Source: a virus
DNA length: 64,000 nt
IMG/VR virus record: IMGVR_UViG_3300030104_002782
Span: 1-64,000 of that record
Strand: one strand, 5' to 3'
Shown: in pieces, positions 1 to 58,035 of the stretch
Numbering within the stretch: position 1 is the first letter of the stretch
Layout of the letters: every line of letters begins with the position of its first letter
Made by a program: the position numbers and the translations under genes
Notes under the pieces: model-generated
Told to the model about the DNA's origin: nothing
Seen by the model: the letters and a program-made list of their open reading frames with translations, nothing else
Database searches by the model: none

Positions 1-58
1 AATATACGCACGAACCGAAGGTTCTTGCGTAGGAAAAATAAAGTCAAGACTTTATTTT

Positions 59-106
59 CGCATGTACGCATACATGCGTGTGTACGCACATGTGCATGTG
101 CGCGCG
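59..106. other. 48-bp alternating pyrimidine-purine tract (possible Z-DNA)
   Basis: Every base from 59 to 106 alternates pyrimidine and purine without a break, mixing CG, CA/TG and TA steps and ending in CGCGCG. Such tracts are the classical substrate for left-handed Z-DNA under negative supercoiling. Similar but shorter tracts lie near the right end (63385-63416 and 63444-63464). Whether it forms Z-DNA here is inference. Confidence 0.7.
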
Positions 107-108
107 AG

Positions 109-150
109 ATAAAAAAAAGCCCCACTAGTCCTCTAGAGGACTAGTGAGGC
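109..150 (-). terminator. Stem-loop plus oligo-T terminator of the left minus-strand genes
   Basis: Positions 123-146 are a perfect 24-nt palindrome centred on CTAG, extended by GCC/GGC pairs with one mismatch. Read on the minus strand it is followed by eight T (118-111). It sits about 20 bp after the stop codon of the gene at 169-339, as expected for an intrinsic terminator. Archaeal polymerases terminate on T tracts, so the hairpin may add to or be separate from termination. Confidence 0.75.
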
Positions 151-168
151 AAACTAGTTTGAATTAAT

Positions 169-339
169 TCAAACTTCAACAATTCTGGTAATCCCACCAT
201 CTCTGATGGTGGCTAAGATTTGCGATTCATTTGCTAAGGGAACCTTAGCACAGTAGAAGTGGTTTACCACTTCTATACTTCCATCTAGAAGTCTATGGAC
301 TTCTAATTCTGCTTCGCAGTAAGGGCATCTAATTGTCAT
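169..339 (-). CDS. 56-residue putative zinc-binding protein
   Basis: This small gene starts at an ATG with AGGAG eight bases upstream. The protein opens MTIRCPYCEAE and has one CxxC pair (Cys5, Cys8), with His and Cys near residues 28-31 (HFYC) that could complete a zinc site. The coding sequence holds several short hairpins, like its neighbours. It lies directly before the terminator at 109-150 and is the last gene of the left minus-strand set. Function unknown. Confidence 0.7.
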   Translation of the reverse strand: MTIRCPYCEAELEVHRLLDGSIEVVNHFYCAKVPLANESQILATIRDGGITRIVEV

Positions 340-361
340 TCTATCATCTCCTAAACTTCGT

Positions 362-937
362 TTATTTCCTCATAGGTTTTGCATTACTATAATCAGAATC
401 GTAGATTCTAATTACTCTCTTCGAGTATTCTTCATCAGATAAATCTGATGCTTCGATGTTAGAATCCCACTCGCCTTCTGTAAGAAGGCAAGAATCATCG
501 TCACCGATAGCATCGTAAGATGAATACAATTCACCAGCCAGAACCTTTAGGTTCTGTTCATCCCATTGGTTGAAATCCCATAGGATTTCCTCAAAGTCTA
601 CATTAGCAAGGTCAAAGACCTTGTCAAAGTATTCTCCCCAATCTTGGCCGAAGGCCAAGAAGAACCCTAATTCTAGACCTGTAAGGTCTATACCGAACCT
701 TTCAATCCATTCCTCCAAATCTTCGTAGAAGATTTGATACAATTTTACCGGCATCTCGAAGTCATAAATGACTTCGTTAATCTTGGCTATCATATAGCCA
801 ATCAATTCTTCTCTATCAGAGCCGAAGGCTCTGACTCTATTCAAGTCCATAGACTTGAATACCACTTGGTATTCTATATCCCAATCATCTAAAGATGATT
901 GCGATAATTTGTCATACAAATTATTTTCTATTTCCAT
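362..937 (-). CDS. 191-residue acidic protein of unknown function, coding sequence full of micro-hairpins
   Basis: Strongly acidic protein rich in Asp, Glu, Trp and Tyr, with no recognisable domain, signal peptide or membrane segment. The start has AGGAGA about seven bases upstream. The coding sequence carries at least 15 inverted repeats with 6-9 bp stems and 2-4 nt loops, for example TCTTGGCC-GAA-GGCCAAGA at 642-660 and AATCTTC-GTA-GAAGATT at 718-734. That is roughly one per 38 bp. Frequent acidic residues suggest a DNA-mimic or regulatory protein, but this is speculation. Confidence 0.75.
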   Translation of the reverse strand: MEIENNLYDKLSQSSLDDWDIEYQVVFKSMDLNRVRAFGSDREELIGYMIAKINEVIYDFEMPVKLYQIFYEDLEEWIERFGIDLTGLELGFFLAFGQDWGEYFDKVFDLANVDFEEILWDFNQWDEQNLKVLAGELYSSYDAIGDDDSCLLTEGEWDSNIEASDLSDEEYSKRVIRIYDSDYSNAKPMRK

Positions 938-969
938 TTCAATTCTCTCCTAAATCTCCGATTTACTTT

Positions 970-1908
970 TCATTGGTTGAAGAATACATTTTGCTTCGCA
1001 AAGTTTCGATGCCATTCAGTAGTTGCTTCGCAAATATCAACTAGACTGTAACTTAAAGAAATCTCGATTTCTTTACCGACATGGTCTTTCAAGGTAAAAC
1101 CTTGACTAAACTTGTAGACAGAGTCTACAAGAAATGCTCTGCATCCTTGGAAATCTTCGATTGTAGCCCAATCTTCGTCTTCATCGAAGATGTCTTCTAG
1201 ATATTTCCATGTTTCATAGAAACATGCTTCAGCATCACCGTCAAACTGTAAGCCGAAGGCTTGAAGGAAATCTGCTATTACTAAATTGTTCCAATTTAGA
1301 CCCAATCCTTCTAGGATTGAACGAAGGTCAAGAAGGAAAGCCGAAGGCTTTAGATAGCCGTAGAAATCTCCGATTTCGTAGTCATATTTTAGAAGGCTAG
1401 AGCCTTCTTTGATTCGGTAAGGAAGTATACCAACGGAGTTGGTATGTTCTTTGATTCTCTCGACTAAGTCGAGTAAATCTTCCGGAGGAAGACACATCTT
1501 CTTGACTAGGTCAAGAAGTCTTTGTTCTTCTTTCTTGGCTTCCAAGACTCTGTCTTGTCCTTCCAGAATATACTCAAAGATGCTGACGAAGTCAGAGTCA
1601 TCCAATTCTTCAAATCTGTCTTCGACAGCATTCAACCAAAAATCGGAGATTTTTGCGGAAATATCAACAATTTTTCTACCTTCTCCGAAGGTTATCCTCA
1701 AAGCCTTATGAAAGGCTTCGAGAGTTGGATAGAACAAATCAACATCTCCGATGTTGAATACCCTCTTTAGAGGGTAGTTGGGAATGATAAACTCGTTTAT
1801 CATCTCCTCTTTGCTCTTAGCCAAGAAGTCTAGGACTTCTGGGGTTGGGTCGGTTTCTGCCTCTCCTTGGAGAGGGGTTTTGCTATGGTTTATACTATCT
1901 TTTATCAT
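970..1908 (-). CDS. 312-residue protein of unknown function, hairpin-rich coding sequence
   Basis: Acidic, largely helical-looking protein without a recognised domain. The frame is open to 1926, but the ATG at 1908 (MIKDSINHS) is preferred because AAGGAGG lies seven to eight bases upstream of it, inside the longer reading. About 20 short inverted repeats with 6-8 bp stems run through the gene, such as AGAAGGCT-AG-AGCCTTCT near 1393. It shares this oddity and its acidic character with the gene at 362-937, and the two may form one transcription unit. Confidence 0.75.
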   Translation of the reverse strand: MIKDSINHSKTPLQGEAETDPTPEVLDFLAKSKEEMINEFIIPNYPLKRVFNIGDVDLFYPTLEAFHKALRITFGEGRKIVDISAKISDFWLNAVEDRFEELDDSDFVSIFEYILEGQDRVLEAKKEEQRLLDLVKKMCLPPEDLLDLVERIKEHTNSVGILPYRIKEGSSLLKYDYEIGDFYGYLKPSAFLLDLRSILEGLGLNWNNLVIADFLQAFGLQFDGDAEACFYETWKYLEDIFDEDEDWATIEDFQGCRAFLVDSVYKFSQGFTLKDHVGKEIEISLSYSLVDICEATTEWHRNFAKQNVFFNQ

Positions 1909-1988
1909 TAGTTTAACCTCCTTCACTTCGTTCAGGAGTTAAACAATGTAAAAGGTAGTAAACCTAGTATAAATCTACGATTTATACT
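1909..1988 (-). promoter_or_regulatory. Promoter and structured leader of the 312-residue gene
   Basis: On the minus strand a TATA-like TATAAATC lies inside a hairpin (10-bp arms at 1966-1975 and 1979-1988, loop TAC/GTA). A start about 26 bp downstream would give a leader of about 38 nt. In that leader AACTCCT can pair with AGGAGGTT, which contains the Shine-Dalgarno sequence. Both TATA box and ribosome site could therefore be masked by structure. Regulation is inference. Confidence 0.45.
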
Positions 1989-2628
1989 GCCGGAACCAAA
2001 TTATGCAATATGGTATACTGATACCATATTGCTTAATTCGCAAAAGATATTTTTTTGCCGAAAACCGATTGACTCGCAGCGTACACATGGCTCTCTTTCA
2101 AAGAGAGGTGGCCTTAATTCTTCCTCAAAACTTCTCCCTTACAGGGAGAAACTTTAGCAAAAACCAAACATCTTGCGAGGATGTGAAATCTAATCTGCGA
2201 TTAGATTTTGCTAAAAGAAGAGATAGGATTCCCTAATTCCTATCTCTACTTTAACGCGAGAAGTTGGTTTTCCATTTAAGTGTAACTAGTTACACTTACT
2301 TTGAATGGTCGGCAAATCTTCCTTAATACGGTAATTTATCGGCTTTTAGTGCTGTTTTATGTTGTCTTTAGACAACATACTTTCGGACTATGTCAAGATA
2401 ACTTTTGTATTAGTTTTCTTTCCGGATTTTGGCTCTAGAGCCAACTATCACAAAGAGAACATTATTTTCCTAGGAAAATAATTCTGATGGAGAAAAGCCG
2501 ATTTATTGTGCGAACTAATCTCAAACGAGTTTGAGATTAGTTTCATATAATAAATAGCAAAAATTGTTAGAGAAAGTTGGCCCTTTATTAACAAAACGGA
2601 AAGGACTAGTCCTTTCCGGTCTAACTAA
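1989..2628. repeat. Non-coding block of perfect and near-perfect inverted repeats
   Basis: I see no convincing gene here; the plus-strand frame at 2003-2236 has no ribosome site and looks accidental. The block holds inverted repeats at 2005-2032 (12-bp stem, loop ACTG), near 2130 (TTCTCCCT-TAC-AGGGAGAA), near 2187-2209 (10-bp stem), near 2278-2297 (perfect palindrome centred on ACTAGT) and 2429-2444 (perfect). Others lie at 2461-2482 (perfect, 22 bp), about 2518-2543 (12-bp stem, loop GA) and 2597-2618 (perfect, 22 bp). Confidence 0.7.
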
Positions 2629-2675
2629 TAAAAAAAAAAAAGGGCCACTGACCCCCTTTAGGGGGTCAGTGGCCC
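2629..2675 (-). terminator. Strong intrinsic terminator (15-bp stem plus T12)
   Basis: Arms at 2642-2656 and 2661-2675 pair perfectly over 15 bp around the loop TTTA (2657-2660). On the minus strand the stem is followed by 12 T (2641-2630). It sits 22 bp after the stop of the small gene at 2698-2826 and presumably ends its transcript. Confidence 0.8.
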
Positions 2676-2697
2676 AAAAGATTTGATTCCGAAGGAA

Positions 2698-2826
2698 TCA
2701 ATATCCTTGTGCTTTAGCACAAGGAGGGCAGAGTCTTTCTGGGACTCCATCGTCTCCGAAGGAGACGACTACATCTTGGTTGTTCGTTGTTTTTTGGCAA
2801 TTCCATTGACAGCATTTTTCTGACAT
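2698..2826 (-). CDS. 42-residue cysteine-rich protein, putative zinc finger
   Basis: Tiny gene, too short for most gene callers, with the sequence start MSEKCCQWNCQK and a C-terminal LCPPCAKAQ. The CC-x3-NC and CPPC groups could bind one zinc ion. It ends just before a strong terminator, which supports it being a real transcript. Two hairpins (CGTCTCC-GAA-GGAGACG near 2751-2767 and the CTTGTGC/GCACAAG pair near 2705-2724) lie in the coding sequence. No clear ribosome site is visible, so it may be leaderless. Confidence 0.55.
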   Translation of the reverse strand: MSEKCCQWNCQKTTNNQDVVVSFGDDGVPERLCPPCAKAQGY

Positions 2827-3298
2827 CAAAGGGTACTACGATGGTCTAATACTTAGAGTTTTGGTGTTTATGCTTCGTTGTTCCGTAGGAACAATGAAGC
2901 AAGGGGTTTTAGGGCCCCCTAAATCTCCGGATTTCCAGAACCGGACACCCTTATATCTTCGATATAAGGGTGATTTTCGGCAAACCAAAATAATTCTGTT
3001 ACCCTATCTTCGATAGGGTAACAGGTAAAGGCTGGGATTTTCGATTTTTAGGGCCCCCTAAATCTTCTTCTCCTTTAGGAGGAGAAGAAGATTCTCAAGT
3101 CTATACCCCTATCTTCGATAGGGGTATAGGTTGAAAATCGGCAACTTTTTTTTTGAACCCCGTAGGGGTTCAATGAGGAGATTTAGGGCAACCTAAAACT
3201 TCAAATCGCAAAAATAATTCTGAGAGTAAACTCTCAGAATTATTTCAAGCGTAACTAACTAGAGGTAATTATACCATCTCCGATGGTATAATTACCGT
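2827..3298. repeat. Non-coding block of long-stem micro-loop hairpins
   Basis: No gene is seen. Inverted repeats follow one another: 2946-2972 (12-bp stem, loop TTC), 2996-3024 (13 bp, TTC), 3061-3093 (13 bp), 3101-3129 (13 bp, TTC), 3153-3173 (9 bp, GTA), 3212-3245 (16 bp, loop AA) and 3264-3296 (15 bp, TCC). Two copies of TTTAGGG-CC-CCCTAAA (2908-2923, 3047-3062) and a related TTTAGG-GCAA-CCTAAA (3182-3197) are interspersed. Arms differ between hairpins, so this is not a simple repeated sequence. Confidence 0.8.
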
Positions 3299-3341
3299 AA
3301 AAAATCCTACAAAAATCCGAGAGTCGGTGAGCCGACTCTCG
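3299..3341 (-). terminator. Putative terminator of the terminase operon
   Basis: A 10-bp stem (3318-3327 with 3332-3341, loop TGAG) lies 34 bp after the terminase stop codon. On the minus strand it is followed by two T-rich stretches. Position and structure fit the end of the 6281-to-3375 transcript. Confidence 0.6.
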
Positions 3342-3374
3342 CCCAGCACCACGAGCAATTTTTTAATTTTTTTT

Positions 3375-4877
3375 TCAGAAAAAAGTGACATACTTGCCAC
3401 TACTCTTTCTAGTGGGCCTACCACCTTTCTGACTAGGCTTACCCCATTTATTCATATCTACAGATGAACCCATCATGGGGATGTCTCCGGTTACATTCTT
3501 AAATTGGTCTACTGCATGAGCAAGGGCCATGACTATATCATTGTGCTTACCTTTGTCTACTATGTCGCCATTTTTCCAAGCATGAGATTCTAATTCTAGC
3601 AAAAGTACACTGACTATCTTGCGAGTCTCATCATCTCCGTAAGGGAAAATAATTCTACCCTGCTCAAACCATGTCCTTAGTCTTGTCATTAGACCTTGCT
3701 TCAAAGTCTTATTGCTAACTTTGCTTTGCTTTACATTAACAGTAAGTCCCTTCTGTTTAAGTAGACTTTCGTAGAGATGTTGAAATCCAGCAGACTCGAA
3801 TGCAAACAAAGGTTTGCTGTATTTATCATTCCATACTGCTATCTCATCTATCTGTTTAGCAGGGGGGAAATCGTTTTTTCGCCAGATGTTTACTAATCGC
3901 AAATTACCATCTTCGTCTTTTCGCATACAGACCATAACAGAGTAGTCTTGTCCTATACCGTGACTTGGGTCAAAACCTATGACATAGTCATTGTCATGTA
4001 CTTTTTTATTTTCAAGTATACTGTGCATATCTAGATTCTTGCGAGTAAGTGTAGTGGGGAATACAGCAGAGTCATCATCTACTACTTTACAGAGATATTC
4101 TTGCGTAAATGCTAATTCGCCTATTGCATCTCTCTGCTCTAACAGAAACTCAATAGGTCTTTCTTCGGGCCATAGACATGTAGGTTCTACATTATCTGGG
4201 TCGCTGCGCCACTCATCATAATTTAAGATTGAACCTTTCACCCAAGTCTGCCACTTCTTATTACTTAGCATCTCGGTATGATACAAATCATTCATTGACA
4301 TAGGAGTGCCTACACAATATATCGAAGTACCGGGGGATAGCATAGGTGTTAGTTTTTTGCGAAACCATTGTTGAACATAATCATATGACATATCGTTCTG
4401 GTCATCTAGTACATCGTCTAATATAATAGCAGCCGGATGTTCTCCACGAATACCGCTACCTACAGATGTTGCTTTTATCCATGAGCCATTTGTTAGATGC
4501 AATTCTAACTTGTTGCCTTTCTTTGGGTCAAGCATACGAGATAACTCTGGATGAGTTTTCAAATCTTGACGAATCTCTTCAAGACGATTAGCAGCCAAAT
4601 CTTTGTTGCTTGAAAATAACCACATCTTTAGAGGCTTACCACGCCATCTTTCAAAAAGTAACATATGCAAGGCTTTAATTCTAAGAGTAGTAGATTTACT
4701 ATGGTCTCTTGGTGCTATGATGCAGACTCTATGAACCTGTGCGTCACCTCTTTCACCATATAAGTCTAGCCATTCACCTATATGCTTGCCCCAATTATAA
4801 CCTAGCCATTCATAGAAATGTCTGACATCATACTTAGACCTCTCAAGATGGAGGGCGGTCATAATTCTTGACGACAT
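3375..4877 (-). CDS. terL: Terminase large subunit
   Basis: ATP-driven motor and nuclease that packages viral DNA into the prohead. The N-terminal ATPase has the phage-type Walker A APRDHSKST (residues 55-63) and Walker B IILDDVLDD (151-159). The C-terminal RNase H-like nuclease carries GFDPSHGIGQD near residue 300 and a late Asp in NDIVMALAHAVD. The length of 500 residues is normal. Its ATG overlaps the stop of the upstream 70-residue gene (TAATG). Unusually it is transcribed away from the portal and head genes. Confidence 0.95.
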   Translation of the reverse strand: MSSRIMTALHLERSKYDVRHFYEWLGYNWGKHIGEWLDLYGERGDAQVHRVCIIAPRDHSKSTTLRIKALHMLLFERWRGKPLKMWLFSSNKDLAANRLEEIRQDLKTHPELSRMLDPKKGNKLELHLTNGSWIKATSVGSGIRGEHPAAIILDDVLDDQNDMSYDYVQQWFRKKLTPMLSPGTSIYCVGTPMSMNDLYHTEMLSNKKWQTWVKGSILNYDEWRSDPDNVEPTCLWPEERPIEFLLEQRDAIGELAFTQEYLCKVVDDDSAVFPTTLTRKNLDMHSILENKKVHDNDYVIGFDPSHGIGQDYSVMVCMRKDEDGNLRLVNIWRKNDFPPAKQIDEIAVWNDKYSKPLFAFESAGFQHLYESLLKQKGLTVNVKQSKVSNKTLKQGLMTRLRTWFEQGRIIFPYGDDETRKIVSVLLLELESHAWKNGDIVDKGKHNDIVMALAHAVDQFKNVTGDIPMMGSSVDMNKWGKPSQKGGRPTRKSSGKYVTFF

Positions 4878-5089
4878 TATTCCTCCTCCGTATTAAAGAA
4901 AAGTGGGAGACCTACCCACTCCGCTATACCAAGAGCAAGTTGCTCTGCTTCTGACCTATCTATTACAATACCTACAATATACTCTTCACTAAAGATATTA
5001 AGAGCAATCAAGTTATCCGTCAATTCTGTTAATTGAGCGTCTTTTTCTTTAGAAGTCCAAATCTTCGCCATCTTCTTCATCTTCTCCAT
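4877..5089 (-). CDS. Small acidic protein between phosphoesterase and terminase
   Basis: A 70-residue protein with no recognised domain. The frame overlaps the end of the phosphoesterase gene by 41 bp from the first ATG; internal ATGs at 5080 and 5071 (MAKIWTSKEK) are equally possible, so the start is uncertain. Its stop overlaps the terminase start by one base. A small protein just before terL could be a small terminase subunit, but nothing in the sequence shows a DNA-binding fold. Confidence 0.6.
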   Translation of the reverse strand: MEKMKKMAKIWTSKEKDAQLTELTDNLIALNIFSEEYIVGIVIDRSEAEQLALGIAEWVGLPLFFNTEEE

Positions 5090-6281
5090 TGAGTGCTTTC
5101 AGTGTCCTAAGACCATGCCTCAAATCAGAGAATGCTTGAATCTCTCTTGTGTGAGGGGAGAGGATAACAACAGGGCAAGTTGGTCTTTCACGAGGGAAAC
5201 CGCACATCTCACCGAAGGTATCTACAATCTTATATGCGCCCGGTCTAACAGCCCAACGCTCAAGACTATGTTTAGTAAAGGGTGAAACAAGAGGCGTATG
5301 GTGATGTCCTACTACTCCTATATCGAAGTCTGCTTCGCCATCATCCCACATCTTCTTGACAACACGACTTGGGTCTATCTGCGAATTACCTCTGCGCTTG
5401 TGTCTTACAGATATATGGTATGGCTGGTCGCCAATCCATAATCTGATGTTTAATTCGTGAGCATGGTAAAGTACCGACCTTTCTTCTGCAAGTCTCTTTA
5501 GAGGGTCATAGTCTGTCATGCTAGCAGTCCATAAATCGTGATTACCTGCAACAATAGCCATAAGGGATGTTGGAGTCATGTCTAAGTAATGCTCACATAG
5601 TTTCCATTGAACAGAAGGGGGAATAGGTGCTTTCATAGCAGGTCTTGGTTTGTCTACAATGAAGTTATCAATGTAGTCACCTGCATGTATAATAAAACAA
5701 TTCTCTGTTCTTTCAACCATCTCCGTATCTAGACGAAGTCTTTCGTGGTCGCAGAAAGGATTACCTATATGCTGGTCGCTTGCGAATGCTATTGCGATAT
5801 ATTTACCTTTATCAGCATTTACTCTAATATCAGCCCATCTATTATGCTCAACATTCTGAATAGCAACTTTAGACTTTTCTTCTATTGCAGCCCATAAGTC
5901 GTCACCGCTACCAGCCGCTTTCTTTAGATGCTCTATTACAAAGTGTGGTTTTTCGGTTCTAGTAATAGCCCCATTCTCATATGCTTGTCTAACACGGTTT
6001 CGCCACGCTTCTACACTTATACCATTGTCTCTGCGGTATAACATACGGGCAAGAGACATGACAGAGCCATCCCAGACCTTCGGAATAGCACTATTGTACC
6101 TCTCTTCTACATCTGGAAACAATTTAGGGTTATTTTCTTTCATTTTAGCAATAAATTGCGCCCAACCGCTATAAGAATGGTCTGGGTACTCATTTGCTAG
6201 CCATCTAGCATAGTGTGTAACTACACCATTGTATTTATCTAAGTTTTCTACGACAATCGCCTTGCGTTCCTCGGTTCGCAT
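5049..6281 (-). CDS. Calcineurin-like metallophosphoesterase
   Basis: Contains the metal-binding motifs of the family in order: FASDQHIG, HAGDYIDN, VAGNHDLW, RHKRRGN and GVVGHHHTP. These coordinate two metal ions for phosphodiester or phosphomonoester cleavage. About 150 residues precede the catalytic domain and may bind DNA or protein. A GTG start at 6296 is possible, but the ATG at 6281 is preferred because a TATA-like box sits 26 bp upstream. It heads the operon that ends with terL, so a role in DNA processing is plausible but unproven. Confidence 0.8.
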   Translation of the reverse strand: MRTEERKAIVVENLDKYNGVVTHYARWLANEYPDHSYSGWAQFIAKMKENNPKLFPDVEERYNSAIPKVWDGSVMSLARMLYRRDNGISVEAWRNRVRQAYENGAITRTEKPHFVIEHLKKAAGSGDDLWAAIEEKSKVAIQNVEHNRWADIRVNADKGKYIAIAFASDQHIGNPFCDHERLRLDTEMVERTENCFIIHAGDYIDNFIVDKPRPAMKAPIPPSVQWKLCEHYLDMTPTSLMAIVAGNHDLWTASMTDYDPLKRLAEERSVLYHAHELNIRLWIGDQPYHISVRHKRRGNSQIDPSRVVKKMWDDGEADFDIGVVGHHHTPLVSPFTKHSLERWAVRPGAYKIVDTFGEMCGFPRERPTCPVVILSPHTREIQAFSDLRHGLRTLKALNGEDEEDGEDLDF

Positions 6282-6302
6282 ACCAATACTACACACTTTT
6301 TA

Positions 6303-33599: not shown

Positions 33600-33764
33600 T
33601 CACCTATACATGGTGTCCTTATCAATCTGTTTATGACCGCATATAGAACAGGTATAATACTTTCGATTAGCAGTATCAATGTGTCCCGTTACTAGCATCA
33701 CAGGCTTAGAGTCTGCTTCTTCTGTTGATATTATAGCATCGCATTCTTCACAAAACATTGTCAT
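33600..33764 (-). CDS. 54-residue zinc-ribbon protein
   Basis: A small gene between the Cas4-like nuclease and primase genes. It has two cysteine pairs, FCEECD near the start and CSICGHK near residue 40, forming a one-zinc ribbon. Its ATG overlaps the stop of the Cas4-like gene (ATGA), indicating coupled translation. Probably a nucleic-acid or protein adaptor; exact role unknown. Confidence 0.65.
   Translation of the reverse strand: MTMFCEECDAIISTEEADSKPVMLVTGHIDTANRKYYTCSICGHKQIDKDTMYR
33614..33626 (-). promoter_or_regulatory. Primase promoter (TTGATAAGGACA class)
   Basis: ATTGATAAGGACA on the minus strand is centred about 26 bp before the primase ATG. The identical 13-mer precedes the gene at 43667-43936. 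It lies inside the upstream zinc-ribbon gene. Confidence 0.6.
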
Positions 33765-34702
33765 ATCATTTCACCCCATAGGTTTTCAAGTCCATTTCTT
33801 TCACTTTCGCAAGACATAGAGAAGTCACACCATTGGGGGCAGAAGTAATCATTCCACTTCATATCCCAATCGTGCGATTTGATACCATCTACTGCTTCTT
33901 TTAGAGATTTGTTGAATGATGTAATACTCCTTGAGTTTAGTTTCTCTACCACTAAGAACCCCTTAGAGCCTTCGGCAATAGCAACTTCTTTGCGAGAATT
34001 GGTATCTAACCAACCCCTTTCCGAACAAAGAACCCTATCCTCATCCCATTCCCCCCAATCATTTTTCCAGCCACACAATTCTGCGACAAACTTAGGGTTA
34101 AAAGCATCTGGGGATAGATAAGCAAAGTGAGTTATAGGTCTAGTCTCGCCCATAAGCCTAAGCATATGAGTATAGTAACACATCTCTTTGCGAGTCTTGC
34201 TAAACTTCATAGAGGCCATATTACCCGTCTTTAATTCATAGATGCAGAGACCGCCATCCGGATGAACGAGAATACCGTCAATAAGACCTACTAAGACTAC
34301 TTCATGTTCAGCATCCCATACAACTCTCTTGACTTCATACTCTACAGGCATGAAGTTTTCAAGACCCCATCTCTCGATACGACACTCTTCTAAGAAGGTA
34401 ATTACTTCATTAGCAGGGTCGTCTCTATCTTCGGGGATTAGTGGGCCTAGTGTGGACTGACCCTCCCAATTATCATACAGAGTCTCTAGGTTCGTGTGAA
34501 CATACTTTCCACGAGCCATAGCAGGGGTCTCTGGCATCCTCTTGTCTTTGAGTTGTACCCTAGACCACCAATACTTTCTAGGACATCCTCCGTAGCCTAC
34601 AAATGAGGACTTAGACATCCTTAGTAGTTTATCCTCATCGTTAGGGTCGTAACTACTATTTGCGTCTAATTCTTCAACAGACATCTCGGATGGGTCTTTC
34701 AT
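33761..34702 (-). CDS. Cas4/RecB-like exonuclease with iron-sulphur cysteines
   Basis: A PD-(D/E)xK nuclease. Motifs seen are GKYVH (His of motif I), GLIDGI (Asp) and YELKTG (Glu-x-Lys), plus a Gln/Tyr motif in CYYTHMLRL. A Cys near residue 40 (GGCPRKYWW) and three Cys near the end (CPQWCDFSMSC) match the 4Fe-4S cluster of Cas4 and AddB-type enzymes. Archaeal viruses often carry such nucleases for end resection; no CRISPR genes are near. Confidence 0.85.
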   Translation of the reverse strand: MKDPSEMSVEELDANSSYDPNDEDKLLRMSKSSFVGYGGCPRKYWWSRVQLKDKRMPETPAMARGKYVHTNLETLYDNWEGQSTLGPLIPEDRDDPANEVITFLEECRIERWGLENFMPVEYEVKRVVWDAEHEVVLVGLIDGILVHPDGGLCIYELKTGNMASMKFSKTRKEMCYYTHMLRLMGETRPITHFAYLSPDAFNPKFVAELCGWKNDWGEWDEDRVLCSERGWLDTNSRKEVAIAEGSKGFLVVEKLNSRSITSFNKSLKEAVDGIKSHDWDMKWNDYFCPQWCDFSMSCESERNGLENLWGEMI

Positions 34703-37534: not shown

Positions 37535-38329
37535 TCATACCCACTCTAGCCTATCTGTGCTAGGGATTTCTTTAAGTCTCGCATCTATCTTAGCGCAAGA
37601 TTCGGGGTATAACTCTACCATAGTAGAGTTTCTTTCTAGTAATTCGCAAGCAACGGCAGTAGTACCACTACCGGCAAATGGGTCTAGAACCCAATCCCCA
37701 ACATCACTACTTGCTAAAACGCATTTAGTAGGTAAATCTAGAGGAAATGGTGCTTCGTGGCCGTTATTAGCAGGGGTCATATCCCATACTGTGAATAAGT
37801 TATTTGCGTTATAATGATAATCCGGATTCTTAGAGAGCATAAATATAGTCTCGTGTTTAGGAACGGGGCGTTTGATATACGCCTCTGGTTGAGGATAAGC
37901 CTTGCTTTTATTCCATATTATTTCGCTTCGCAAAATCCAACCATCAGCCTGTAATGCTAAAGCCAATCTCCAAGCAACACCTATCAGATTCTTTTTAGGG
38001 AGACCTAAAACATTTCTAGAACCCCATTTATTCTTCGACCCTTTGATGCCTCCTTCTTTGTAATCGGAACCTGCACCGCCAGAGCCATTGTAGGAATCCC
38101 CTACATTCAACCACAAAGTACCATCATCAGTTAGATGGTCTCGCACTTTGCGACAGACTTCTACCATAGTCTCTAGGTATTCTTCTAAAGTCTGACCTTT
38201 ACCAACTTCGTCTTTATCATCACCATAAGTACGCATCCCGTAATACGGAGGAGAGGTAACGCAAGAACGATATTTGCGATTACCCAAGTCTGCTTTCAGA
38301 AAGTCCGAGCATATTATTTCATGTTCCAT
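37535..38329 (-). CDS. DNA methyltransferase (N6-adenine/N4-cytosine class)
   Basis: A beta-class methyltransferase of 264 residues: catalytic motif TSPPYYGMR near residue 25 comes before the AdoMet-binding DPFAGSGTTAVACE near 222. TSPPY is frequent in N4-cytosine and some N6-adenine enzymes. No restriction partner is seen, so it likely protects viral DNA or modifies it. ATG 38329 overlaps the previous stop (TGATG). A TTTAGG-GAGA-CCTAAA hairpin lies in the gene near 37993. Confidence 0.85.
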   Translation of the reverse strand: MEHEIICSDFLKADLGNRKYRSCVTSPPYYGMRTYGDDKDEVGKGQTLEEYLETMVEVCRKVRDHLTDDGTLWLNVGDSYNGSGGAGSDYKEGGIKGSKNKWGSRNVLGLPKKNLIGVAWRLALALQADGWILRSEIIWNKSKAYPQPEAYIKRPVPKHETIFMLSKNPDYHYNANNLFTVWDMTPANNGHEAPFPLDLPTKCVLASSDVGDWVLDPFAGSGTTAVACELLERNSTMVELYPESCAKIDARLKEIPSTDRLEWV

Positions 38330-38694
38330 CAAGCAATCCTCCTATACTGAAATATGTTTTTTACTTTGCCTACCCTTTCTACGAGACCCCAATTTACCAA
38401 ACAAATTAAAAGACTACCGACTGTTCTAGTATCTATGTCTGTTCCTTGGCCTCTTATGTATCTATTTGCTATTGGTAGTATTGTGTCAGAAGTAAATCTC
38501 TGTCCTATCTCCATATCTTTGAGAACCGCATAAGTTACTGCTATTTTTCTATGTACTTTACGAAGGGACATAACCGAACCCATTTGTCGCAGAACCCAAT
38601 ATATCTCATCTACAGGGAGTTTTATGCCCCTGCTTGCTATATTCTGTATTCTCTGCCTAGGTTGTTCTTCTACCCATTCGCTAAGTACCGGCAT
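38329..38694 (-). CDS. Putative winged-helix protein
   Basis: A 121-residue protein with a C-terminal winged-helix-like pattern (DTRTVGSLLICLVNWGLVER then a beta hairpin). It is coupled by overlaps to the clamp gene upstream and the methyltransferase downstream. A DNA-binding role in replication is plausible; no family is recognised. Confidence 0.5.
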   Translation of the reverse strand: MPVLSEWVEEQPRQRIQNIASRGIKLPVDEIYWVLRQMGSVMSLRKVHRKIAVTYAVLKDMEIGQRFTSDTILPIANRYIRGQGTDIDTRTVGSLLICLVNWGLVERVGKVKNIFQYRRIA

Positions 38695-49930: not shown

Positions 49931-50137
49931 AATGTTTCTAAGCCGTAGAAATAATTCAGAAAAAATAAAACGAGTGACTGTTAGCAAGTCAGCGTTATTC
50001 TTTCCAATTTCCTAAGATGTAGAAACTTATTTACTAATAATAGTAAAGCCGGTTTCTAAATACTAACTCTTAGGAAAAAAGAAATAATAAATCGAAATGC
50101 CATGCAGTACAACGATTATTTATTTCTGTATTCTTTT
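49931..50137. other. AT-rich gap between replication and accessory modules
   Basis: No gene is seen. It contains TTTACT-AATAAT-AGTAAA (near 50031), several TTTCTAA/TTAGAAA words and CAGAAAAAATAAAA. Its end (near 50103-50141, GCAGTACAACG then TTATTTATTTCTG) resembles 6498-6537, and GCAGTACAACGATT recurs near 62958. It is one of two candidate replication origins. Confidence 0.35.
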
Positions 50138-50941
50138 TCAGACTTCCAAATAATTAATTTGTGAAAATCTATCGGCCTCTATATCGTCGCGCTCGCGTGA
50201 TAACATTCCAATCGCATTTTGATTATCACCCTCCAAGCGAGGATATTCAATTTCATTTACGCAACGCGCCATCTCTGGGAGATTGTTGTTTAGGAAAAAG
50301 GTAGTATTATCTCCACTCCAATAATTCTTGCGACAGAGACGGACATCCTTTCCGGTGGGATTGTATACGATGGATGTAATTAACAAGCCTTCTTGATACT
50401 CTCGCACCAATACTAACTGCGGATAAGAGCCGTAGATGTAGGTAGGGACATAATGCAGACCGTGTGTATCTCTGTACGGTGTGTCAATTTTTACAATAAA
50501 ATCAAGTCTCTGATATTTATCAGAGACTTGCGTTGTTGATGACGCGACCCTAAAGTCTTTTGCGATATAGCAATCTTCTATCACGCGTATGTCGTTAGGT
50601 ACTCTCATACGCTTGCTTTCGTATTGCATAATTAGCATGTCAATCTCCGATTCCTCTATCAAATCAACCAACTCTCTTGCGAATATGACATCTTCAATAT
50701 CCCCTTTCATAGCCGCATTCACCATACTGCGATACATATCTGGCTGTATCGTGTCTAGGAACGACCATACGGAGTCGTAGCCGTCTATGACTACATCATG
50801 TTGTCCGACTTTCAGATGTATGAAGGGTTCAAATGTTCTGCGTCTAGCCGCAGAGTTTCTACGCCAGCATTGAAAATCAATAACTTGAATGTCGGTCAAA
50901 GGTGTAATCAGCCACTCTCCGAGGAGTCTTAGTGTTTCCAT
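50138..50941 (-). CDS. 267-residue hypothetical protein
   Basis: No recognised domain. Mixed alpha/beta with an aromatic-rich middle (YVPTYIYGSYPQLVLVREYQ). The coding sequence contains one strong hairpin at 50503-50530 (13-bp stem, loop TT). A TTTGATAAGGTCA promoter is 28 bp upstream of the ATG. Confidence 0.6.
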   Translation of the reverse strand: METLRLLGEWLITPLTDIQVIDFQCWRRNSAARRRTFEPFIHLKVGQHDVVIDGYDSVWSFLDTIQPDMYRSMVNAAMKGDIEDVIFARELVDLIEESEIDMLIMQYESKRMRVPNDIRVIEDCYIAKDFRVASSTTQVSDKYQRLDFIVKIDTPYRDTHGLHYVPTYIYGSYPQLVLVREYQEGLLITSIVYNPTGKDVRLCRKNYWSGDNTTFFLNNNLPEMARCVNEIEYPRLEGDNQNAIGMLSRERDDIEADRFSQINYLEV

Positions 50942-50950
50942 ATTGCGAGA

Positions 50951-50973
50951 TAAGGTCGCATGACCTTATCAAA
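50951..50973 (-). promoter_or_regulatory. Promoter with overlapping palindrome
   Basis: TTTGATAAGGTCA on the minus strand is centred 27-28 bp before ATG 50941. ATAAGGTC-GCAT-GACCTTAT forms an 8-bp inverted repeat over its downstream half. That is a natural operator-like site, though it could also be one of the genome's many micro-hairpins. Confidence 0.5.
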
Positions 50974-51097
50974 CCTCGCCTCGTACATGTTTAATGTAGC
51001 ACTTGATACAGAGCATCTGCTCTTTACCCAATGATGTGTATAGAGGCTGGGCCTCTATATCGTCTATCTCTACACCGCATCTATCGCAAGTAATCAT
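50969..51097 (-). CDS. 42-residue zinc-ribbon protein
   Basis: Starts MITCDRCGVEID and continues to MLCIKCYIKH; the two CxxC pairs are about 25 residues apart. Its ATG overlaps the stop of the upstream gene (ATGA). A TATAGAGGC-TGG-GCCTCTATA hairpin lies in the coding sequence near 51041. Confidence 0.6.
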   Translation of the reverse strand: MITCDRCGVEIDDIEAQPLYTSLGKEQMLCIKCYIKHVRGEV

Positions 51098-51300
51098 TCA
51101 ATCACCTCAATGTTTTTTATTTCCCAATTGAAAATGTCATAATCTTCTGCATTACACAAGTTACGCAGGTTGTCTAATTTCTTCTGTAAGTCCTTGACTT
51201 CTGCGAGCAGTAGCAAAACTTTATCGGCCATTTCACTATGGGTGAATAGGTCTCTCAAATCGCAATTCGTATATCCTTCGTATCTGTCTGTGTCAATCAT
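51094..51300 (-). CDS. 68-residue coiled-coil protein
   Basis: Heptad-like EMADKVLLLLAEVKDLQKKL forms a clear coiled coil. It overlaps the leucine-zipper gene upstream and the zinc-ribbon gene downstream. The pair may form a hetero-coil. Function unknown. Confidence 0.55.
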   Translation of the reverse strand: MIDTDRYEGYTNCDLRDLFTHSEMADKVLLLLAEVKDLQKKLDNLRNLCNAEDYDIFNWEIKNIEVIE

Positions 51301-51418
51301 TCTTCTTCGCCTCCTCTAACTCCTGTAATGCCTTCGCCAATTCATTTTCAAGTCGCCATATTTCATTTTCAAGTTGCCAAACCTTCGTTTGATATGCCAA
51401 AAGATGCTTACCTTTCAT
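51293..51418 (-). CDS. 41-residue leucine-zipper-like peptide
   Basis: Nearly the whole peptide is one coiled coil with two repeats, VWQLENEIWRLENELAKAL. The repeat is also visible in the DNA as two copies of a CTTGAAAATGAA unit. It overlaps both neighbours as 4-8 bp. Probably a dimerisation partner. Confidence 0.5.
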   Translation of the reverse strand: MKGKHLLAYQTKVWQLENEIWRLENELAKALQELEEAKKND

Positions 51419-51924
51419 TCAATCACCTCTACGCCTCGCCACCAACTAGGGGTTTTTCTCGGCCCTACCCATTTAGCAAATGTCTTGGTGTGATAGTATT
51501 CTCGGTATGCTTTTACCGCATCTTCGTCTTTGTACTCCTCTGGCATAGCCTGTGCGAATGGCGTTCTATCACCCTCTGGCAAGTATTCGTCAGCCATACT
51601 AGCCATATGAGTAAGGGGCCATAGGCAAGCATGTTTGTGACCGTAGCGATAATCAAATTGCTGGGCTAGGGTAAAAGCATGTCTAGCAAGCCATAAGAAG
51701 TTAGCCTTATTTTCTTGAGTCCAACGAGTACAGGGGTGATGGGGGTAGCCGCCCTTGTATGGCGTACCATGAAGGGTCAAAGGCATATCTTTGTCGGTTG
51801 CACCGTGAAATCGCAAAGCAGATGCCATCATCTGCGCTGACTCTACAATCATCTTAGGGAGATGCTTGTCGCACACCATTTTAGCCGCTTCGATAGGACA
51901 GTCGGATAATGCGAATATATTCAT
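51415..51924 (-). CDS. Conserved phage protein of the MNIF...CDKH..KM family
   Basis: About 169 residues. The start MNIFALSDCPIEAAKMVCDK, then HLPKMIVESAQMM, HHPCTRWTQENKANFLWL, RYGHKH, TPFAQAMPEEYK and YREYYHTK match a family common in marine phages, often annotated as pyrimidine-dimer glycosylase-like. I am sure of the family pattern, less so of the enzymatic label. ATG 51924 follows GGAGGGATGC. Confidence 0.65.
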   Translation of the reverse strand: MNIFALSDCPIEAAKMVCDKHLPKMIVESAQMMASALRFHGATDKDMPLTLHGTPYKGGYPHHPCTRWTQENKANFLWLARHAFTLAQQFDYRYGHKHACLWPLTHMASMADEYLPEGDRTPFAQAMPEEYKDEDAVKAYREYYHTKTFAKWVGPRKTPSWWRGVEVIE

Positions 51925-52055
51925 TGTGCATCCCTCCATATCCTCTCTAGCACAGATACCCAAGCATCCATAAGATACTCATGTTCGGGGTGCGATTCTA
52001 AGAATGACTTCATCTCTGCTATAACATAATTTAGATGTCTAACTCCTTGCTTCAT
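51921..52055 (-). CDS. 44-residue helical protein
   Basis: From ATG 52055, preceded by GAGGGATGC. Two helices (RHLNYVIAEMKSFLES; EYLMDAWVSVLERIWRD). Overlaps both neighbours as ATGA. No function recognised. Confidence 0.5.
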   Translation of the reverse strand: MKQGVRHLNYVIAEMKSFLESHPEHEYLMDAWVSVLERIWRDAQ

Positions 52056-52267
52056 AGTGCATCCCTCGCTAGACCTTGCATTATTTCTTCTATGTCGGAG
52101 TTGTCGCCCCATAATTTAACATGGTACTCCGCCATCCATCTTAATGTTGCTTTACAAGCACCTTCTCGCAAAGCATCTAAGAACATGGGCCAATTGTATA
52201 CGGGCTGACCGTAGCCTGTCATGTGCATGATAGTCCAACCGCAAGCCCAACTAGGAATATGTACCAT
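52052..52267 (-). CDS. 71-residue Trp-rich hypothetical protein
   Basis: Starts MVHIPSWACGWTIMH after GGAGGGATGC and is helical in its second half (FLDALREGACKATLRWMA). Overlaps the previous gene as TGATG. Unknown function. Confidence 0.5.
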   Translation of the reverse strand: MVHIPSWACGWTIMHMTGYGQPVYNWPMFLDALREGACKATLRWMAEYHVKLWGDNSDIEEIMQGLARDAL

Positions 52268-52443
52268 CAAGCATCCCTCCTTCTGAACATATGTCCTATT
52301 CTTGCAGGTATAACGACTGTTGCATTACATACATCACAACATCTGCCATCATTTACAGGCTGGGCGTTATTACCGCTATCCCAATACATTTTACCATTAT
52401 GGTACTTCTTTTCAATCTCTATTTTGCATATGCTACATTTCAT
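52267..52443 (-). CDS. 58-residue zinc-ribbon protein
   Basis: From ATG 52443 after GGAGGA: MKCSICKIEIEKKY, then CCDVCNATV about 30 residues later. Overlaps the coiled-coil gene upstream as ATGA. A small zinc ribbon as in many neighbours. Confidence 0.6.
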   Translation of the reverse strand: MKCSICKIEIEKKYHNGKMYWDSGNNAQPVNDGRCCDVCNATVVIPARIGHMFRRRDA

Positions 52444-52670
52444 ACTAAATCCTCCGTTGCTCTTGCTATTGTTTGTAATTCTGCCTCGATTTCTGCGAGT
52501 GTGCTTTCCCAATCATAACCAAAACCGCTATGTGGTGCGCCTATGTCATGTGGTAAACTCGCCTCCGCCATTTCAATAGCGTCAATCGCAGCCTCCACAT
52601 ACGATTTAGCCTCTTCTAATTCATCTACTCTACAGAGTAATTCCTCTATCTCTTCTTTCAAATTGCTCAT
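52440..52670 (-). CDS. 76-residue coiled-coil protein
   Basis: Acidic coiled coil throughout (LKEEIEELLCRVDELEEAK; TLAEIEAELQTIARATED). GGAGGC is eight bases before the ATG, and a TATA-like TATTATAG lies about 27 bp upstream. Unknown function. Confidence 0.55.
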   Translation of the reverse strand: MSNLKEEIEELLCRVDELEEAKSYVEAAIDAIEMAEASLPHDIGAPHSGFGYDWESTLAEIEAELQTIARATEDLV

Positions 52671-52713
52671 TTTTATGCCTCCATTTGTGTTCTATAATAG
52701 GGGTCTCTCCTAC

Positions 52714-52971
52714 TTAGACCCTCCCTTTCAATTTCTTAGTTTCGATTAGTAATTTATCGGTTGTCAATTTGCGAGTTTCTAATACCTTTTCCACCCATTC
52801 GCGTTCTTCGATACCGCACTCCTTCGGAGTCTTACCTTCGATGCGTACACATGGGGTGGAAACACGCAACATCTTTTCCGCTAATCTGCATTCAGCACAC
52901 CCGCCTGTTTTACCGTCATATGCTAGTGGGATTCCGTCAGAAGGCGAGCCGCATATACCACATTTACCCAT
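52714..52971 (-). CDS. 85-residue zinc-ribbon protein
   Basis: MGKCGICGSPSDG then GGCAECRLAEKM: a zinc ribbon with 17 residues between the pairs, followed by a charged helical tail rich in Lys and Glu. It begins directly after the preceding stop. Possibly a nucleic-acid-binding adaptor. Confidence 0.6.
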   Translation of the reverse strand: MGKCGICGSPSDGIPLAYDGKTGGCAECRLAEKMLRVSTPCVRIEGKTPKECGIEEREWVEKVLETRKLTTDKLLIETKKLKGRV

Positions 52972-53502
52972 TCACTCTTCCTCCCCGTAGTTTGCGATTC
53001 GGTATCTGCTAGGGAGAAAATCTCCTGTTTCCAAGTCTAGACCTACTTCGTCTGCCTTCCTTTTCATCAATTCTTCGGCAATATGCCTCATATCTTCTGG
53101 GATTGTTCTTTCGACTATCCAATCAAAGTCTACCCACTGTAGACTACTTGTATCTTCGGGTAGTGCTACCTGTATAATCGCTGGGCCTACTAGTGGTCTC
53201 TCATACTGTATTCCTTCGGCATAAGCGGCAAATGTTGATACTGCGTTAGGGGTCATTCTTCGCAAAAGACCCTCTTCGTTCACTATTACATCCTTTACTT
53301 TGCAGAGACCTGCTTTGAGTCCCTTCTCATCATGCCCTAGACCGCTTGCAGGTACAGGAAAACCTTCGGTATTTCGTACTACTGCATATTCTATCAACCC
53401 ACCTACATGTTCTTGCATTTCCTCTAGGGAAAGGTCGTCTAGGCTTATTCTCGTTATCGCGCCGTTTTCTGCGATAAAAATACTTAGTGTTCTTTCTTTC
53501 AT
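52972..53502 (-). CDS. DUF3846-like protein
   Basis: A 176-residue protein with LSLEEMQEHVGGLIEYAV, DVIVNEEGLL and GPAIIQVALPED, matching the DUF3846 pattern common in phages and plasmids (a short beta domain of unknown role). The C-terminal ~60 residues are extra. Overlaps the upstream gene by 4 bp. Confidence 0.55.
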   Translation of the reverse strand: MKERTLSIFIAENGAITRISLDDLSLEEMQEHVGGLIEYAVVRNTEGFPVPASGLGHDEKGLKAGLCKVKDVIVNEEGLLRRMTPNAVSTFAAYAEGIQYERPLVGPAIIQVALPEDTSSLQWVDFDWIVERTIPEDMRHIAEELMKRKADEVGLDLETGDFLPSRYRIANYGEEE

Positions 53503-53747
53503 CTAATCATCTCCTTATCTCTTCTTATGTTACTCTCGATTTCTAGCAAGGCAGAATCTAAGAGATTCCTCCATGTCCTTAATCGTGAGAGTGTGTTTTC
53601 TGTCTGCTCTGGCACAATCAGAGTGTATGCGTGTGCCATGTGTTCAAGCATAGTCGCTGCTTCTAGCAGCGTTTTGACTGTGAATGTATGGGTATACAAG
53701 GTATCACGCCCACATTCCCGATGAGAACGGGTCGTCGTCGTTCTCAT
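53499..53747 (-). CDS. 82-residue helical protein, start uncertain
   Basis: The convincing part is LLEAATMLEHMAHAYTLIVP and two more helices. The frame is open to 53843, but upstream it overlaps another gene for too long. ATG 53747 or a later TTG are possible starts. Unknown function. Confidence 0.45.
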   Translation of the reverse strand: MRTTTTRSHRECGRDTLYTHTFTVKTLLEAATMLEHMAHAYTLIVPEQTENTLSRLRTWRNLLDSALLEIESNIRRDKEMIR

Positions 53748-54375
53748 CACTGTCGGGGTCAATATCTTCTGCGACTTTTCTACCCATATTAAACGCCTTC
53801 TTTCTGATAGCGGCTCTGACATCATCTTCGTCATGGGATTCAATCGAGTCTACGGATTCCTCGCAAGGCAACCTGCTAGTCACACTCTGTATGTATTTCT
53901 GCAAGTACACATCATCAGTTACAGGTATTGCTGCTGCTTCTGATGCTTTGTCATAGACAAAGTTTGGCACACATGCTTCTAAGGTCTTTAGGAAAGTCTC
54001 CCATAGATGTGAATACCTACGGTATCTGCGTATCTTGCTAGACTCACTGTCAATGTTGGGTATTATCCTAGCCGGACAAGCCTCTGGGGTTGGTGCTATA
54101 CCTGTCACTAGTCTAGTGACAAGCAGACTTTCGCAATAGTTAATCACTTCTTGTGCATCTACTTTACCATCCTTTAGGATGCTCTTAGCCTTTTCGTGAC
54201 ATGCCTGTAACTCCTCTAGGCTTATGTCGTCTGCTATTACCTCATCAAACGCAGACTCACCGTTGCTTCTGTAGAAGCCCCTGTCTGCGTCTATTACAAG
54301 ACCATTCTCTACTACTACTGCGTAGTAAAAACTAGCCGCGTCGCTCTCGTTCTGTATCAATTCTGTTCCAATCAT
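53704..54375 (-). CDS. 223-residue acidic hypothetical protein
   Basis: Opens with a beta-like SFYYAVVVENGLVIDAD and then a LSLEE-like helix (DDISLEELQACHEKA), slightly recalling the DUF3846-like neighbour, and ends very acidic (DIDPDSDENDDDPFSS). ATG 54375 is 27 bp after a CCCCCTATAAGAGG promoter. A TGTCACTA-GTC-TAGTGACA hairpin lies near 54107. Confidence 0.55.
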   Translation of the reverse strand: MIGTELIQNESDAASFYYAVVVENGLVIDADRGFYRSNGESAFDEVIADDISLEELQACHEKAKSILKDGKVDAQEVINYCESLLVTRLVTGIAPTPEACPARIIPNIDSESSKIRRYRRYSHLWETFLKTLEACVPNFVYDKASEAAAIPVTDDVYLQKYIQSVTSRLPCEESVDSIESHDEDDVRAAIRKKAFNMGRKVAEDIDPDSDENDDDPFSSGMWA

Positions 54376-54394
54376 GTTTTCCACTCCTGTTTCA

Positions 54395-54411
54395 GCCTCT
54401 TATAGGGGGCC
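54395..54411 (-). promoter_or_regulatory. C-rich TATA promoter, accessory class
   Basis: GGCCCCCTATAAGAGGC on the minus strand, centred about 27 bp before ATG 54375. Similar C5-TATA boxes occur at 56227-56244, 58011-58028 and 62212-62229. Confidence 0.5.
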
Positions 54412-54414
54412 AGC

Positions 54415-54957
54415 CTATTTATGCTTATCCCCCATCGGGCCAGCCTTTAGTTTGCTTTTTGCTTTAGCAAAATCTACTTGCTTAATTGCACCTACGGACA
54501 CATAGTCCTTGAGTGCGTCTATGTCTACAGTCCATCTGAACCTTGACCTATGATTATGAATAGCAAAGACAAAATCTTCGTACATCATTTGGGTATCATC
54601 ATCCCAAGCATTGATGTCCTTCATGTGCGCTCTCACTACATCTGCACCGCCTACTTTGAGTGTGCGACCTAGATGTTTAGCCATGTGGCATCTAGGACAT
54701 AGTGCTTGCACACCTAGGAGAACCTGTCTGTTAGCAATATCATCGTAAGCCCAAATCTCATGGGCTTCAACGGCATGTTTGCGATTTTGCGTAAATCCAT
54801 CTTGGCCGCAGACCTCGCACTTATGACCTGCCTGTTCGTAGACAAACTTGCGAAGTCTATTCCAACCCGAAGGGGGCATGAGACTACGCAGGTTTGCACC
54901 CCATGTTCCTGTAGGAACCAACTCGCATATCAGAGGAATGCCTCTCACTTGCGCCAC
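54415..54957 (-). CDS. HNH endonuclease
   Basis: A 180-residue HNH protein: CEVCGQ (Cys47, Cys50), VEAHEIW (His66) and LCPRCHMAKHLG (Cys87, Cys90, His91, His95), with structural zinc Cys. The C-terminal helical part is of unknown role. It starts at GTG 54957. It could be free-standing or help in packaging, since HNH enzymes often assist terminases, but it lies far from terL. Confidence 0.75.
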   Translation of the reverse strand: MAQVRGIPLICELVPTGTWGANLRSLMPPSGWNRLRKFVYEQAGHKCEVCGQDGFTQNRKHAVEAHEIWAYDDIANRQVLLGVQALCPRCHMAKHLGRTLKVGGADVVRAHMKDINAWDDDTQMMYEDFVFAIHNHRSRFRWTVDIDALKDYVSVGAIKQVDFAKAKSKLKAGPMGDKHK

Positions 54958-55010
54958 CTTTTGAATATATTCCTAAGTGAAGGCCATTCGGCCCACATGT
55001 CGAATATCAT
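54945..55010 (-). CDS. Possible 21-residue coupled micro-ORF
   Basis: MIFDMWAEWPSLRNIFKRWR begins as ATGA overlap with the upstream stop and overlaps the HNH start. It may only serve to couple translation across the gap. Confidence 0.3.
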   Translation of the reverse strand: MIFDMWAEWPSLRNIFKRWRK

Positions 55011-55498: not shown

Positions 55499-55713
55499 GG
55501 GTATGCCTCCTGTAGATGTGCGACTCCTTCTTTAATCGTCTCGATGGTCTTATCTAGCATTTTCAGAGCCTCTACGCTTTTACCAATCGCAAGTTGCGTT
55601 CTAGTAATCTCTAAGACATCTATGATGTCCTCTAGTACACTTACTTGCATAGCGACCATGTTGTCTAGCATTTCTTTCACTTCATCCATTATTTTTTCTT
55701 CGTTCATTTTCAT
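55495..55713 (-). CDS. 72-residue helical protein
   Basis: All-helical, Met/Leu-rich (MDEVKEMLDNMVAMQVSVLE; LEITRTQLAIGKSVEALKML). Overlaps neighbours as ATGA. Unknown function. Confidence 0.55.
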   Translation of the reverse strand: MKMNEEKIMDEVKEMLDNMVAMQVSVLEDIIDVLEITRTQLAIGKSVEALKMLDKTIETIKEGVAHLQEAYP

Positions 55714-56513: not shown

Positions 56514-56520
56514 TTGCGAA

Positions 56521-57056: not shown

Positions 57057-57057
57057 T

Positions 57058-57255: not shown

Positions 57256-57256
57256 A

Positions 57257-58028: not shown

Positions 58029-58035
58029 CCTGTAT

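Follow-up and report, generated by a model that had tools for sequence, protein, structure and literature searches.

A short palindrome in a genome is commonly taken for a protein-binding sequence, an RNA structure or a mutational scar, and how the two arms stay identical is a question for RNA and DNA hairpins alike. Both matters are raised by a tailed virus that carries a dense array of micro-hairpins beside its gene for the terminase large subunit (terL). What is this array, and what keeps its hairpins perfect? We analysed the first 64,000 nucleotides (the window) of virus record IMGVR_UViG_3300030104_002782, which is 64,259 b long. The window contains a tailed-virus gene set: terminase, portal, tape measure, family B DNA polymerase, clamp loader, XPF-type nuclease and Mre11/SbcD-like protein. 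Via terL, 51 relatives (numbered with the prefix L) were collected; they are non-independent samples, and counts over pairs were guided by alignments. Relatives with the array are called carriers.

Density and extent of the hairpin array

The original prediction, made from the sequence itself, described positions 1-3360 as a left arm saturated with micro-hairpins. The saturation was confirmed. The region holds 73 non-overlapping perfect inverted repeats (stem at least 6 bp, loop at most 4 nt) with stems of 6-16 bp, taking up 44% of the bases, against a mean of 4.5 and a maximum of 11 in 30 dinucleotide shuffles. With stems of at least 7 bp the counts were 65 and 1.4. Half of the array hairpins lie in two open reading frames (ORFs), where 15 and 22 were found against 1.7 and 2.3 (maximum 5 and 7) in synonymous-codon shuffles. 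DNA folding of array stretches gave z-scores of −5.5 to −8.8, and that of a control stretch at 20 kb −0.2. Perfect inverted repeats (IR) with arms of at least 10 bp and spacers of at most 8 nt reached a local 176 IR bp/kb; in a survey of 118,019 genomes measuring the same object, the viral mean was 1.93 IR bp/kb and the single-genome maximum 180 (PMC13155455).

The "left arm" itself proved to be a contig cut. The record ends share a 130-bp repeat with 99% identity. The array crosses the contig ends: it continues at 62-64 kb and trails off as far as about 50 kb. Hairpins per kb (stem at least 7 bp, loop at most 8 nt) numbered 23, 19, 18 and 7 over the first 4 kb, about 1 across most of 4-55 kb, and 10 and 16 at 62-64 kb. 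Within the tail (50000-62170), the CobS-like and neighbouring genes held more hairpins than all 200 synonymous shuffles. The array is one-sided. Hairpins whose loop is closed by a 5′ pyrimidine and a 3′ purine (5′-Y..R-3′, below Y-R) numbered 13.2, 12.1, 5.4, 3.4, 2.3, 1.6, 1.3 and 0.75 per kb in successive 2-kb bins counted from the terL stop, with background reached about 18 kb from it; on the side of terL and the structural genes there were about 0.2 per kb through 24 kb. The pattern recurs in carriers with long contigs. Hairpin density tracks position and not tolerance to change, because no hairpin lies in the variable tail fibre and tape measure genes (70% and 82% identity to the nearest relative), and the CobS-like gene at 6 kb (81%) has seven against 0.34 in shuffles.

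Stems and tips carry a DNA-level signature

Among 1037 hairpins in 15 regions, some of the same species, only 58 stems continue beyond a mismatch. G-U type mismatches made up 8 and 7 of these 58 on the two strands, where one third was expected, so neither strand is enriched. The array is nearly strand-symmetric. The claim that the loops are non-random stands: Y-R closing pairs outnumbered the reverse by 58:7 in the array, as against near parity in the controls, with 16:15 in the rest of the window, 53:45 in relatives that lack the array and 37:42 in shuffles, and the first 50 kb of halovirus HCTV-5, a distant polymerase relative, had no tip bias (10:10). Y-R pairs close about 90% of tips, among which the types C-GNA-G/C-TNC-G, C-TTTA-G and C-TAAA-G are prominent; C-GNA-G and C-TNC-G account for 16 of the 31 array triloops. 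Mini-hairpins known to be stable in single-stranded DNA include those with Y-R-closed tips of the C-GNA-G and C-TTTA-G types. That the signal is a DNA-level one we regard as very probable.

Three explanations can be set against these data. RNA structure control, which had been suggested, would make the hairpins terminators, regulatory or protective structures of leftward transcripts. A few terminator-like hairpins with T runs exist (for example 2642-2675, T run on the minus strand). However, besides the missing G-U excess and the near symmetry of the strands, the tips are of DNA type, many double changes in the arms (see below) are double transversions, and an Rfam search of the window gave no match at the gathering threshold; we consider RNA structures very unlikely. 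A mobile palindromic family of the REP, Rickettsia palindromic element or MITE type would place palindromes both within and between genes, as found here, but arms share 9-mers at 0.9% within a genome and 0.7% between distant genomes, and beyond the tip nothing is common to them. The arms thus differ among hairpins, as first stated, with no ordinary repeat family, and mobility is still less probable. Chance or an assembly artefact deserves hardly any weight. Assembly is affected, as several contigs of the group break off close to the first hairpins; yet the counts lie far above both kinds of shuffle and the array is clade-specific. The window is 99.98% identical to L009, and L012, L013, L014 and L016 are near-identical to one another. 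The same hairpins occur in contigs of independent metagenomes and therefore are no assembly artefact.

A conserved element forms the edge of the array

The array begins sharply at a short noncoding element, GGTGnTnGGCG, followed about 25 nt on by a T-rich stretch in most genomes. The element was found in 28 of the 29 carriers and non-carriers examined, and L019, missed by the pattern, has a near match. It is a candidate packaging (pac) or replication element. Next to it, a hairpin recurs at the same spot, with different arms, in most carriers.

The sister clade has a sequence motif array in the same place

On the terL tree, rows that extend far enough past the gene carry the hairpin array, save for a 16-row clade (support 97/99) and the distant outgroup L049. 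The location of the array is conserved across the whole carrier set. As the backbone of the tree does not resolve, the history may have been a gain plus a loss, or else just one switch.

The sister clade, which lacks the hairpins, repeats a degenerate motif, about 22 bp long (consensus CnAAnCGnnnCACTGCGnCCC or near, core ACTGCG), in both orientations (144:79). The motif array occupies the place of the hairpin array, with the same sharp edge at the conserved element and a similar decay. Each of five long sister-clade genomes has 26-28 matches in the first 2 kb and fewer thereafter; counts are near background in the structural genes of this clade and at background in carriers, as judged by a motif model trained on the first 3 kb. 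In L044 and L045, outside the core discovery set, raw core counts agree and an ACTGCG array is present. Median spacing is 64-76 bp for motifs and 42-70 bp for hairpins (eight carriers). The carriers L028, L031 and L032 retain one good copy of the motif beside the element as a relic. The outgroup L049 has neither array, and a third array type was sought in it and not found. A dense motif array was noted 0-10 kb past terL in L021, L023, L034, L036, L044, L045, L046 and L051.

In both clades, the zones where genes are most divergent lie close to the element. Relaxed constraint alone was rejected as a cause of the hairpins: variable genes elsewhere are hairpin-free, and so is the variable zone of the sister clade, which is the same one.

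The two arms of a hairpin change together

Near relatives keep the position and the symmetry of hairpins and not the arm sequence, which is altered on both sides; position is held across about 10% divergence. In eight close pairs, 50 of 2163 stem pairs had changed on both sides and were still paired, while 55 were broken. The substitution spectrum of the double changes (22:15:13) equals that of the spacers (200:128:88). The pairs L010/L011, L042/L043 and L012/L014, which differ by about 0.2-1.7%, had nine double changes and one one-sided change. At this divergence chance doubles are negligible, and double changes were about as frequent as single substitutions in spacers. Independent point changes therefore do not account for them; single-event copying or recombinational import would.

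Arm coupling depends on a foldable tip, and poorly tipped hairpins decay. Coupled and broken pairs numbered 80 and 64 in hairpins with Y-R tips and loops of at most 4 nt, as against 10 and 59 in the rest (Fisher p 8e-9, which is optimistic since the counts take pairs in both directions). Loops showed mostly single-base changes. Exact inversions made up only 4 of 26 loop changes (AA/TT type, pairs non-independent), and loop inversion was rejected as the dominant event. Ectopic copying between hairpins was ruled out by the unshared arms. Concerted, clustered multi-base changes that left the arms perfect, the sign by which template switching or quasipalindrome correction is recognised, were found. 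The triple L028/L031/L032 gave no clean gain of a hairpin, most hairpins being common to all three. In the alignment stretches inspected, carriers had lost neither the Mre11-like nuclease nor the proofreading motif of the polymerase, the motifs being intact.

A proposed functional array set by shape

The explanation that we favour, with about even confidence, is a functional array of DNA sites set by shape, whose arms are kept matched by arm copying and whose equivalent is the sister-clade array. Each site is a perfect palindrome, short and with a tip suited to folding in single-stranded DNA, and the array starts at the element beside terL and thins in one direction over about 18 kb, in coding and noncoding DNA alike. 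If foldability alone matters, arm sequence may drift, fold-back or template-switch synthesis would copy one arm onto the other, and selection would remove sites that do not fold. Such copying between arms we hold to be rather probable. A single machine, or a pair of equivalent ones, would use both arrays, recognising the sites by shape in carriers and by sequence in the sister clade; that the arrays share a function appears equally probable. A functional site array is favoured because a by-product alone does not predict a motif array of the same layout in the sister clade. It is plausible, at somewhat less than even confidence, that two sister lineages mark the same territory beside the terminase at equal site density, one by sequence and one by sequence-free shape kept readable through arm copying, recognition having switched between codes in evolution.

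The job of the array may, more tentatively, be the handling of viral DNA ends. The machine would act on single-stranded DNA near the start of packaging or recombination. If the element is a pac-type start, successive headful ends would fall beyond it with declining frequency, and sites there could stop resection or promote recombination as the injected genome circularises. The decay from the element beside terL suits sites acting where headful virion ends would fall. The array with its edge and decay, the DNA-level signature, the concerted arms, their dependence on the tip and the sister array are observations; that single strands fold in the cell, that one arm is copied from the other, that the two arrays share a function, and that the virus packages by headfuls and handles its ends at these sites is what we infer from them.

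Several points weigh against this explanation. A strong template-switch model might give more exact loop inversions than were seen. Contiguous blocks of 5-6 bp changed in both arms (L010/L011, L017/L018) are unexplained by simple arm copying, and allele exchange by recombination between close pairs may mimic single-event double changes. The motif decays faster than the hairpins, the place where coding begins partly shapes both decays, and the two clades may have come to a like spacing by coincidence. Circular DNA also accounts for scattered contig ends. Headful packaging, the single-stranded state and function are putative here, and the proteins named as possible array binders are candidates.

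The main rival is a pure mutational by-product, in which DNA ends or replication intermediates near the element would fold back and a polymerase would copy one arm from the other, so that hairpins accumulate and stay perfect without function. Hairpin-templated mutation had been proposed at the outset, and part of it holds: arms change in concert at a near-neutral rate with an ordinary spectrum, coupling depends on the tip, and arms are unshared. Yeast double-strand breaks yield templated inverted duplications of 5-34 bp through fold-back (PMC11724301), and perfect stems can be created and maintained by template switching (PMC8794818). What it leaves unexplained is the sister motif array, since a by-product alone cannot make an array with matching edge, spacing and decay; moreover, hairpin positions persist over about 10% divergence and hairpins are dense in genes that stay open. 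We consider it rather unlikely as the whole explanation. A DNA architecture for packaging or replication, also proposed, agrees in outline with the anchoring at the element and with the sister array, packaging or replication itself being a putative assignment. A further rival would have a primase, or an RNA polymerase that reads single-stranded DNA hairpins as that of phage N4 does, start at the hairpins, with the element as origin. Promoters of the phage N4 virion RNA polymerase are DNA hairpins with short stems and 3-base loops, stable in single-stranded DNA; here a conserved noncoding element adjoins the array, and C-GNA-G loops are modestly strand-biased (26:46, p 0.024). N4 promoters are, however, few and of defined sequence, whereas the present sites are far more than promoters need, lie within genes and have no fixed stem sequence. 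An N4-type polymerase was not recognised in this virus: the 1155-aa ORF is the tape measure, and the largest ORF (2363 aa) had no Pfam or PHROGs match. GC skew tracks gene direction and not the element. Single-stranded start sites thus seem improbable, though less so than RNA structures.

If the favoured explanation is true, the array is a natural genomic mark coded by DNA shape, with an evolutionary change of code. Its many independent hairpins in near-identical pairs are a natural record of the rate and route by which palindrome arms are kept identical, and give a handle on DNA-end processing in tailed viruses of uncultured marine hosts.

Likeness to known systems

Integron attC sites are recognised by folded single-stranded shape over sequence, as the array may be; they are longer, have extrahelical bases and are tied to cassettes and an integrase. 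No integrase was found among the ORFs searched, which were part of the total. Chi and other dispersed recombination motifs resemble the sister-clade motif; they are short and numerous and serve in the processing of DNA ends, and enrichment with decay from the element is seen for both arrays. Chi sites are sequence-coded, unlike the hairpin array, and a tie to a nuclease would here be drawn by analogy.

Mitochondrial coding palindromes of Nematomorpha are likewise perfect inverted repeats within functional protein genes, and template switching is weighed as their origin (PMC6649704). They are far longer (arms up to 142 bp), and no anchored gradient or sequence-coded counterpart array was found described for them in the text consulted. 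Template switching and quasipalindrome correction (PMC8794818, PMC8604942, PMC11724301) share with the array a hairpin basis, perfect arms and concerted multi-base changes, but are known as sporadic mutations; here a saturating array is anchored at one element and decays over 15-20 kb. As first supposed, no viral feature matching the hairpin array was found described in the open literature.

Features of the window and neighbouring observations

The features are listed in the table below.

Table. Coordinates of the array, its edge and adjoining features in the window
Feature	Position	Strand	Remarks
Array core, 73 perfect micro-hairpins, stems 6-16 bp, loops 0-4 nt	1-3360		Noncoding DNA and two ORFs
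End repeat copy, 130 bp	1-130	+	Partner copy 64130-64259, beyond the window
ORF, 191 aa, hypervariable, 15 hairpins	362-937	−	No Pfam or PHROG match
ORF, 318 aa, hypervariable, 22 hairpins	970-1926	−	With 362-937, equivalent of one longer ORF in L028 and L032
Noncoding part of array, longest stems (up to 16 bp)	1936-3339		z −8.5 to −8.8 at 2940-3140
Hairpin group with common tip ATC-TTC-GAT, arms unshared	2946-3129		3101-3129: both arms replaced in L010
Hairpin 1, CGAGAGTCGG TGAG CCGACTCTCG	3318-3341		Adjoins the element
Conserved noncoding element GGTGCTGGGCG (consensus GGTGnTnGGCG)	3340-3350	−	24-83 nt past terL stop
terL (terminase large subunit)	3375-4877	−	Just outside the array; 0 Y-R hairpins with stem of at least 7 bp (coding-strand scan)
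Mre11/SbcD-like metallophosphoesterase	5049-6296	−	Adjoins terL; motifs intact in carriers and non-carriers
Decaying array tail within early genes	50000-62170		39 hairpins, Y-R closing 30:9
Array continuation over contig ends	62170-64000		About 21 hairpins with stem of at least 7 bp, 16 with Y-R closing

The polymerase is most like those of haloarchaeal tailed viruses (22-23% identity). An archaeal host is likely for this marine tailed-virus lineage because the polymerase is nearest to those viruses and the genes for replication are of archaeal type. Polymerase and terminase scans over 84,980 genomes, made to find a host through proviruses, gave no relative. Near-unit-length contigs of the group break at points scattered over the map, and two genomes have end repeats, which is compatible with circularly permuted genomes; a fixed genome terminus was sought from contig ends and none was found. 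The carrier contigs L015, L020, L027, L033 and L037 stop 116-192 nt past terL, where the first strong hairpins lie; assembly is the probable cause.

In L028 and L032, one longer ORF of 499-507 aa corresponds to the two hypervariable array ORFs. This fast-evolving family has the motif LSKExxINDFVIPxYKV (window 362-1926, L028:12634-14157, L032:5435-6934); it was not found in L014 within 9 kb and has no known relatives, and function searches with the array ORFs gave no match. The Mre11/SbcD-like protein is a possible hairpin-acting enzyme. CobS-like AAA and DUF7192 genes (59873-62178) show 22-34% identity between the two clades, where terL shows about 72% and the polymerase about 60%; their products are candidate array readers. 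The PD-(D/E)XK nuclease (33761-34702) has a segment at about residues 212-231 in carriers that is gapped in non-carriers. An N6/N4-type DNA methyltransferase gene (37535-38332) is present in every carrier examined, and non-carriers lack it or match weakly. The ORF at 51415-51963 scores above the Pfam cut-off for the pyrimidine dimer DNA glycosylase family, which acts in UV repair.

The palindrome TTTAGGNNNNCCTAAA occurs in five exact copies (2908, 3047, 3182, 37994 and 63209), with 0.3 expected when one mismatch is allowed; one copy lies within the methyltransferase gene. It is also found in other carriers, and its arms are conserved, unlike those of other hairpins. Near the contig junction, alternating purine-pyrimidine runs of the TGCATGTGCG type lie at 63370-63620 and 55-115.

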